Assembly: GCF_021531375.1 (NCBI RefSeq)
Contig: NZ_JADYTU010000020.1
Coordinates: 1 to 33,734, forward strand
Source of the DNA: Pseudoflavonifractor phocaeensis
Lineage (GTDB): Bacteria > Bacillota > Clostridia > Oscillospirales > Oscillospiraceae
DNA length: 33,734 nucleotides
Direction: 5' to 3'
Shown piece after piece: positions 29,627 through 30,718 of this stretch (position 1 is its first letter; every line of letters starts with the position of its first letter). The notes under the pieces are model-generated. The model saw nothing but the letters and a program-made list of their open reading frames with translations. It did no database searches and was not told the DNA's origin. The position numbers and the translations under genes are program-made.

Positions 29627-29650
29627 AAAAAAGGCCCGCCGGTTTCGGGC
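29627..29650 (-). terminator. Weak terminator just outside the left end of the inserted element
   Basis: GCCCG and CGGGC arms (29634-29638, 29646-29650) are followed on the minus strand by a six-T tract. The short stem makes it weak. Between here and 29509 I see only GC-rich leader of the DUF3343 gene and no certain promoter. Confidence 0.45.
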
Positions 29651-29667
29651 GTTATTCATAAGACAGT

Positions 29668-29709
29668 AAAAATTTTCAAAAGGCGTGACTTTCGTGGTCA
29701 CGCCTTTTG
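29668..29709 (-). terminator. Hairpin and T tract at the left end of the element (terminator for the DUF1275 gene)
   Basis: A 13-bp stem CAAAAGGCGTGAC/complement (29677-29709) is followed on the minus strand by AAAATTTTTAC. It is the first strong stop after the DUF1275 gene and adjoins the left terminal repeat. Confidence 0.65.
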
Positions 29710-29722
29710 CCATAAGAGGATA

Positions 29723-29860
29723 GCTGCAAAGCAGCGCAAGGGATACAGTCCCTTGCGTGGAACTCAGTGACGTAAAACGCTCCGGGCATTTGAAGGTATC
29801 CGGGGTGTTTTGCCTCGCAAGCGCACATACGGGGTTGCCCCGTACAGAAGTGCGCCCTTG
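29723..29860. other. Candidate transfer origin (oriT) with IncQ/MOBQ-like nick region
   Basis: Successive hairpins lie at 29723-29735, 29735-29757, 29773-29811 and 29829-29843 (ACGGGG-TTG-CCCCGT). The last is followed by AGAAGTGCGCCCTTG. AAGTGCGCCCT (29848-29858) equals the nick-region core I recall for RSF1010-type oriT, where an inverted repeat also sits directly 5'. GCGCAC at 29821-29826 pairs with GTGCGC at 29850-29855, an outer arm. No relaxase gene is near, so it would need a helper in trans. Confidence 0.5.
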
Positions 29861-29882
29861 TATTTGTTTGACAAACAGGAAT

Positions 29883-30530
29883 TTACCGGTACTCCTTAAT
29901 CATCATTACGATAACGAAAGTTAAGAGTATTGTGGAGACCAAAATCGTTTTTATACCGAAGATATTCGATAGGACTCCTCCGATTCCGGCCCCGATTGCA
30001 AAAACTATAATTATACCCCAAAAATGAATTGCTTTATATAAAGATTCCTTATCCTTATTCCGGAGGTAATGTGATAAGCTTTCTGTTCCACTTCTCAGAT
30101 TTCCTATACACATAGTGCTCGCATATCCGTACCCATGTACTTTTCTGAAAGTTTGCACCTGCATAGCACATGAAAAGGAAACTAACATATTGGCAATCAT
30201 ATTTAATTTGAGCGGCATAAATCCGACAAGGCCAAGCATTAGCATTTCTATAAACAGAATGATTTGTCTCCAGTGTATGCCCTTACTGTTCTTGAACTTG
30301 TTTTCAATTTGCTCGGCAATAAAAATACCTGCAGCAAATGAAAGCAAAGGAAACATATAATGGAACCCCATAACCGCATTGCCTTGCATAAAATTCTGAC
30401 TCATCAGAACAACATTACCTGTTTGAGCATTTGCAAAAACGTGGTCTCTTACATTGTAAGTATATGCATCCTGAAATCCACCCGAAAACGACAAGATAGC
30501 ACTTAATCTAAAACTCTCTGATGTTTGCAA
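29883..30530 (-). CDS. DUF1275 (YoaK-like) membrane protein, AT-rich foreign gene
   Basis: The 215-residue protein has about six membrane helices and the DUF1275 signature SFSGGFQDAYTYNVRDHVFANAQTGNVVLMSQ at residues 14-45, plus KVHGYGYASTMCIGNLRSGTESL. The family function is unknown; transport has been suggested. The start is a TTG with GGAGGTG 10 bases upstream, and no ATG lies near. Base composition and AT-ending codons (for example ATA and TTA-rich) differ sharply from every neighbour. Together with the flanking inverted repeats this indicates recent acquisition. Confidence 0.88.
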   Translation of the reverse strand: MQTSESFRLSAILSFSGGFQDAYTYNVRDHVFANAQTGNVVLMSQNFMQGNAVMGFHYMFPLLSFAAGIFIAEQIENKFKNSKGIHWRQIILFIEMLMLGLVGFMPLKLNMIANMLVSFSCAMQVQTFRKVHGYGYASTMCIGNLRSGTESLSHYLRNKDKESLYKAIHFWGIIIVFAIGAGIGGVLSNIFGIKTILVSTILLTFVIVMMIKEYR

Positions 30531-30575
30531 TGTGAATAAACACCTCCAAAATTCCGATTTGTAGGCCTGCTCGGT

Positions 30576-30607
30576 CCTGTTTTATCACATAACAGGATAA
30601 AAAACAA
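30576..30607 (-). promoter_or_regulatory. Promoter and operator-like repeat of the DUF1275 gene
   Basis: On the minus strand TTGTTT (30602-30607), 17 bases, TAAAAC (30579-30584). An inverted repeat CCTGTT-N9-AACAGG (30576-30596) covers the -10 region and could be an operator. Confidence 0.5.
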
Positions 30608-30640
30608 GAACAGCCACAGCAGTTTATACTACTGTGACTG
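30600..30640 (-). terminator. Terminator-like hairpin at the right end of the element
   Basis: In the minus-strand RNA a 13-bp stem (30611-30640, two G-U pairs, AUAA loop) is followed by UUCUUGUUUUUU. It would stop ispF read-through and insulate the element gene; its T tract overlaps the -35 box of that gene. Confidence 0.65.
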
Positions 30641-30718
30641 TTAACTGTCTTATGAACACCGCATTTTCCCGGCGGACTCCAAAGTCCGCGATATTTCTCC
30701 GGCCCTTGGCCGGGAAGC

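Follow-up and report, generated by a model that had tools for sequence, protein, structure and literature searches.

A compact unit of about 1 kb occupies positions 29646–30665 of the 33,734-nt stretch of Pseudoflavonifractor phocaeensis DNA analysed here (the window), its extent placed by comparison with related elements. Perfect 13-bp inverted repeats (TTCATAAGACAGT at 29655–29667 and its exact reverse complement at 30644–30656) lie just inside the borders, as first described, and extend imperfectly to 35 nt at 74% identity. The initial annotation had set the boundaries at these repeats (29655–30656). The repeats are real, but the crossovers lie 9 bp further out, at TT dinucleotides at 29644–29645 and 30666–30667. 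Comparing the ends of related elements gives attachment half-sites of CGGGCGTTATTCATAAGACAGT at 29646–29667 (plus strand) and, in reverse complement, AATGCGGTGTTCATAAGACAGT at 30644–30665 (minus strand).

Read from right to left, the unit comprises a hairpin, a promoter position, a single cargo gene, a folding oriT-like stretch and a hairpin terminator. The right-end hairpin (30609–30642, minus strand) and the left-end terminator facing the cargo gene (29677–29709, minus strand) bear out the earlier mention of hairpins at both inner ends, and the terminator scan finds 6 terminator-like sites in this stretch against 1.3 expected. The sole sizeable gene by open-reading-frame list and Pfam is the DUF1275 gene recognised at the outset (29883–30530, minus strand; PF06912, E 1.2e-56), which encodes 215 aa from a TTG start. 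A promoter position, TTGTTT-17-TAAAAC at 30579–30607 (minus strand), is weak by consensus and keeps its place and spacing in related elements. The one promoter originally reported thus rests on this conserved position, since a generic sigma-70 scan of the window finds none. A preQ1 riboswitch match at 30571–30613 scored 20.9 bits (E 0.21), below the gathering score of 39, and was taken as chance. GC content descends in steps from about 0.6–0.7 in the flanks to about 0.5 in the unit's left 230 bp and 0.35–0.39 in the cargo, the oriT module being intermediate, so the sharp changes fall near 29880 and at the unit's right end. A composition shift exactly at the repeats, as initially described, therefore holds on the right but not on the left.

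The oriT-like module may link the unit to conjugative mobilisation. It spans 29718–29862 (plus strand) and folds strongly (DNA fold z −4.3). Over 128–144 bp it is 77% identical to the sequence that precedes the DUF3847 gene at each of two DUF3847/MobA-MobL loci elsewhere in the genome (C22 and C44). Within it, GAAGTGCGCCCTT at 29847–29859 (plus strand) resembles the Gram-positive oriT consensus NcgtNtaAgtGCGCcCTta as given in the accessible part of PMC10333310. Transfer-origin-like DNA had been noticed here from the letters alone, and the similarity agrees with that reading. The same holds for the unit's lack of a mobility enzyme: tblastn searches with recombinase, relaxase and DUF3847 proteins gave no match anywhere in the 33.7-kb window.

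Ends of this kind bracket many different genes across one bacterial family. We searched 101 stretches (the window, plus 20, plus 80) for inward-facing ends judged by core mismatches and spacing only, and obtained 36 pairs, 35 of them distinct and including the window unit, with L213 and L216 among the doubtful ones. Counted from genome handles, these candidates cover 23 genomes, 17 genera and a single family; many other ends run into contig breaks and hence stay unpaired. The common end is approximately GGTGTTCRTAARACAGTTAA. Allowing up to two mismatches, a search of 400 family genomes located this pattern at 130 sites in 61 of them, whereas the reversed control gave 14 sites in 13; with up to one mismatch, the pattern occurs in 4 of 391 genomes of a class-wide sample, the unit's own genome counted. 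IMG/VR contains no exact copy of the end pattern, and a comparison of the left module with PLSDB plasmids at E 1e-5 found nothing.

Family members share an architecture and differ in their cargo. The compact order end, terminator, oriT, gene, promoter, hairpin, end is found repeatedly in several genera with different genes, and the oriT motif (up to two mismatches) is present in 31 of the 35 elements, including the recombinase elements L161 and L159, the latter with a weak match. Several of 300 family genomes hold the left module and the right end close together with different DNA between (L010, L012 and L014, for example). The window unit's right 140 bp recur at 99% identity in another genus, at another site beside different DNA. 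Among 30 proteins scanned from related elements are glyoxalase, GNAT, NUDIX, alpha/beta hydrolase, arylamine N-acetyltransferase, Ada, MazG, CDP-alcohol transferase, peptidase S51 and DUF559 families; 9 of the 30 have no Pfam family at E 0.001, and none belongs to a transposase family. A DUF559-like gene near oriT recurs in L164, L169, L174, L202 and L226; the assignment comes from Pfam for L164 and L226 and from visual inspection for the other three. The unit's own genome carries a second small oriT-bearing element (G000:C11, L160 7370–8248) with a 175-aa orphan frame, crossover AA/TT and an unclear terminator. L329 (1794–2803) holds a tandem of two units of another kind, each consisting of motif, gene and motif with a hairpin on one side.

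A shared dinucleotide points to the class of enzyme involved. The window's crossover is TT/TT, and across the set 27 of 35 elements have an identical dinucleotide on both sides, 9 bp outside the TTC core of the end and read along one strand; permuting partners 2,000 times gave a mean of 8.4 matches and a maximum of 18. The matching dinucleotides (left/reverse-complemented right) are TT/AA in 10 elements, AT/AT in 9, AA/TT in 5, GA/TC in 2 and TC/GA in 1. Correcting one wrongly paired left end (L160) raises the count to 28 of 35, with 7 lacking a match, and leaving out the self-complementary AT/AT cases gives 19 of 26 in the corrected set. At no other dinucleotide position do more than 11 of 35 elements match, the palindromic TA in the core excepted, and outside the core the maximum is 9 of 35. 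A shared 2-bp crossover is the mark of a serine recombinase, and a 2-bp overlap is stated for Tn4451, TnpX and Tn6104 in the available text of PMC5704250 and PMC3158075. Because the direct repeat is only 2 bp long, we amend the initial view and take the mover to be, most likely, a large serine recombinase rather than a transposase.

The flanks add a feature that the initial annotation did not contain, namely that the unit's target is most likely a terminator hairpin. An A-run plus GGCCCGCCGG at 29627–29643 appears to form the left half of that terminator and 30668–30680 the right half of its stem, with CCGCCGG at 29636–29642 pairing with 30669–30675. Judging from their base pairing, the flanks of related elements are mostly two halves of a terminator hairpin as well. 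Left and right flanks have a median stem score of 12.5 over the 35 elements versus 5.0 for swapped flanks, and 27 of the 35 exceed the swapped flanks' 95th percentile; the window's own stem is short (score 7, below the 95th percentile of 8). Joined flanks fold with a median of −26.9 kcal/mol, versus −13.9 for swapped flanks and −17.0 for random 58-mers, and the structures formed tend to be terminator hairpins whose loop contains the crossover. A fold of −25 is reached by 22 of 35 joined flanks, 2.1% of 1,190 swapped and 8.7% of 1,050 random controls. The cut-off of −15 is passed by 33 of 35 yet is little informative, since 43% of swapped controls and 60% of random GC-rich DNA pass it too. The window's joined flanks fold at −22.4, a value equalled or bettered by 5.3% of swapped flanks and 16.8% of random 58-mers, and L160 and L188 show no clear terminator in their joined flanks.

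An empty site in the nearest relative supports an insertion. In that genome (G039) the same flanks lie 126 bp apart, versus 1,100 in the window, and enclose an uninterrupted terminator with stem GGGCCTTCCGG-CACA-CCGGAAGGCCC. Eight other relatives also lack the unit at this site by eye, three of them holding longer unrelated DNA there. The two observations that the initial annotation had named as arguing against mobility, vertical synteny of the segment and repeats confined to this locus, were looked for and not found; similar paired ends occur elsewhere and enclose other genes. In L290, L291, L292, L296 and L300, visual inspection suggests that genes for more distant large serine recombinases also stop next to terminator halves, there with different end sequences, and terminator targeting may be wider than this recombinase group.

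Candidate helpers reside in the same genome, on other contigs than the unit's. Three loci (C22, C44 and C4) encode 572-aa large serine recombinases, 97–100% alike, and at each of them an end of this type follows closely after the gene; within the unit's own 33.7-kb contig tblastn finds no helper-like element alongside. These recombinases carry Resolvase, Recombinase, Zn_ribbon_recom and DUF4368 domains (Pfam), and their closest solved sequence is TnpX (2mhc, E 5e-35). C22 and C44 additionally encode DUF3847 and a MobA/MobL relaxase, that of C22 matching MobA_MobL in Pfam and scoring above the NCBIfam MobQ cut-off. The C22 element (G000:C22:56984-67705) has both ends, with AA/TT by eye and flank stems only partly complementary. 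C4 is a 4.1-kb recombinase element with both ends, a strong terminator and AA/TT, and gave no match to the C22-type relaxase. For C44, a second end was looked for and not found. The window's ends differ from those of the resident recombinase elements at 2–3 bases, and mixed ends occur within single elements.

The association between recombinase and end extends beyond this genome. Among 30 loci, an end lies 52–95 nt past the recombinase gene in 16 of 18 at 50% identity or more, versus 1 of 12 below; the exceptions are L285 and L286, the latter with only part of the protein aligned. A recombinase at least 57% identical was present in 3 of 19 carrier genomes (G000, G039 and, as a partial gene, G031), the 19 being those taken as within the recombinase sample (handles up to G249), with at most five candidates scored per genome. 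In the near-complete genome G125, which has three units, five recombinase loci at 36–42% identity showed no end with up to two mismatches. In carriers that lack a close helper, such elements may be transient, may have been lost or may belong to another subtype.

We conclude that the unit is probably a non-autonomous integrative mobilisable element, or mini-IME, because a serine-recombinase-type 2-bp repeat coincides with terminator-halved flanks and an empty site. This supports, as far as sequence allows, the initial suggestion that the unit is either a small passenger mobilised in trans or a mobilisable element that has shrunk. What can be read in the DNA itself are the ends, the 2-bp repeat, the terminator halves, the relative's empty site, the oriT similarity and the helper-like elements of the same genome; from these we infer excision, a circle, action in trans, transfer and expression. 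A TnpX-kind large serine recombinase from larger elements with the same kind of ends would cut both ends of the unit in trans, and strand exchange over 2 bp would circularise it. The circle would then integrate at the loop of a rho-independent terminator, with the terminator's palindrome acting as an attB-like target. A MobQ-family relaxase, again in trans, would nick oriT on the circle, which would leave the cell by some conjugative system. Once inserted, the right-end promoter would drive the cargo and the left-end hairpin would end transcription, so the insert would replace the terminator that it had split with a stop of its own.

Three other accounts of the segment fare less well. It is unlikely that the unit is a plain decay product resembling a CIME, an autonomous IME stripped of genes by internal deletion and now immobile. 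Such decay could explain why L186 retains the last 31 codons of a recombinase, why the ends of six elements read into a tnpV-like frame and why most sampled carriers lack a close helper, but the compact order recurs in several genera with different genes and the right 140 bp are nearly unchanged at another site in another genus. Moreover, oriT in the C22 element lies about 4 kb from the right end and 6.5 kb from the left, so the unit's order is not reached by simple deletion.

Improbable, in our judgement, is a MITE-like or passenger transposon that a DDE transposase would mobilise in trans by recognising the 13-bp repeats, with oriT playing the part it has in MTnSag1/tISCpe8. Perfect terminal repeats fit that idea, and small oriT-bearing IMEs with an IS1595-type transposase exist (PMC5704250, available portion). 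Against it, the 35 elements give no sign of a target duplication longer than 2 bp, ends of this type lie just past serine recombinase genes, and transposase families are missing from the 30 scanned proteins; we rejected DDE transposition for want of a duplication of several base pairs. Barely credible is the notion that the repeats are by-products of terminators or regulatory palindromes in a segment of ordinary vertical inheritance. Terminator halves do flank the unit, but in the nearest relative the matching flanks enclose no such segment, and similar ends enclose different genes at other loci.

Within the mini-IME, the cargo appears to be a module of its own. Fifteen of 29 small oriT-bearing elements carry a promoter of the form TTGNNN-17-TANNA(T/C), versus 0.7 expected by shuffling, and it starts 45–64 nt from the end opposite oriT. 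In six other elements an end reads, in place of the promoter, into a frame that we take to be tnpV-like. A short, quasi-palindromic boundary motif, GAYAAAYYGGAATTTG, lies between these fixed parts and the gene. In the window it occurs with two mismatches on each side, as GACAAACAGGAATTTA at 29870–29885 (plus strand) next to oriT and as TACAAATCGGAATTTT at 30548–30563 (minus strand) next to the promoter. Over the 29 elements, the best oriT-side match has at most three mismatches in 20 (mean 2.8 versus 6.4 shuffled) and the promoter-side match in 12 (mean 3.7 versus 5.4 shuffled), with the motif on both sides of the cargo in 10. Geneless element L211 (378 bp) holds one palindromic copy.

DUF1275 genes illustrate how homology stops at this motif. 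Genes with 90–98% protein identity occur in other contexts, many in Lachnospiraceae records. Seven upstream contexts have pairwise identities of 0.94, 0.76 and 0.28 per 10-base step outward, diverging after the motif; nine downstream contexts give 0.98, 0.81, 0.41 and about 0.37 over 20 bases, then about 0.25. These contexts are not all independent, since L034, L035 and L105 share further bases. In the same three loci a hairpin joint of about 48 bp (TTTCAGTCTTG...GACTGAAAGCAACAGAAGATTTGAATTT) beside the DUF1275 gene looks like a joint between cassettes. Two genera share an identical 516-bp stretch that includes a glyoxalase gene, attached in each case to a different left module, the joint falling inside the motif. 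Because homology stops at the motif in several contexts, the comparison suggests that cargo genes are exchangeable promoterless cassettes. DUF1275 genes 94–99% identical to the window's adjoin other left-end modules and other hairpins in L122 (G124:C110) and L091, the latter with a related but different end, CTTAAGGACAGT; further element families may thus carry the same cassettes.

The motif is also found outside these elements. With up to one mismatch it occurs at 57 places versus 1 for the reversed control in nine genomes chosen as carriers, and exactly at 37 places versus 1 in 196 class genomes, 25 of which have it. At 19 loci with the exact motif we saw by eye no constant recombinase neighbour; most have no second copy bracketing a gene, and some single hits are likely chance, such as that at a gene end in L354/L355. 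A list of 53 candidate cassettes includes overlapping and chance pairs, and we do not rely on that number. L362 (1087–1516), from a different family's genome, has a row of three genes: a GNAT gene, a glyoxalase-like gene and a further small gene, which lies between copies of the inner motif. We tentatively advance, as somewhat short of an even bet, an integron-like, two-layer mode of gene sharing in gut Clostridia: GAYAAAYYGRAATTTG-bounded, promoterless single-gene cassettes would be captured by a putative recombinase behind a fixed promoter on oriT platforms of about 1 kb, themselves satellites of TnpX-like elements that enter terminators.

If the mini-IME reading is true, a pair of ends, an oriT and one gene, together about 1 kb and without any mobility protein, may be all that is required for genes to spread by conjugation in the gut. 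Annotation keyed on integrases or relaxases would miss such units. A terminator loop would be a safe and abundant landing site, and a terminator-favouring recombinase would interest genome engineers. The inner cassette layer, if true, would be integron-like capture outside known integrons, more than a mini-IME.

Known elements each share part of this design. The TnpX-type IMEs of Clostridia, Tn4451/Tn4453 and Tn6104, resemble it in the helper recombinase, which is closest to TnpX among solved sequences, and, in the available text of PMC3158075 and PMC5704250, in the 2-bp repeat and mobA/mobL. An identical 2-bp crossover at both ends is likewise found in the window and in 27 of the 35 elements. 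However, those elements encode their own recombinase and mobilisation gene, whereas the unit has neither and encodes no excision or integration of its own; the word 'terminator' is absent from that text of both papers. MTnSag1/tISCpe8, according to the accessible part of PMC5704250, is likewise a small mobilisable element with terminal repeats, and oriT is the sole sequence involved in mobilisation of MTnSag1, but the IS1595-family transposase and 8-bp direct repeats described there are both missing from the unit, as is any target duplication of several base pairs. With iOriT elements, IMEs with oriT and without relaxase in the portion of PMC11389934 available, the unit shares a putative oriT and a window in which tblastn finds no relaxase; unlike them it also lacks an integrase and measures just 1 kb. 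CIMEs, as the accessible text of PMC5704250 defines them, keep attachment ends and lack integration and transfer genes, as the unit does. In contrast to a CIME, the unit stands alone, neither in tandem with an ICE or IME nor moved by one in cis, has its own oriT-like DNA and follows a compact layout that recurs with other genes. Within openly licensed papers we found no such element or terminator preference, which is weak evidence of newness.

For the inner layer the nearest counterpart is the integron. Its cassettes are promoterless single genes that come to lie next to a fixed promoter and are bounded by short quasi-palindromic sites. The unit resembles them in its cassette-like boundaries and fixed promoter, a likeness of sequence layout.
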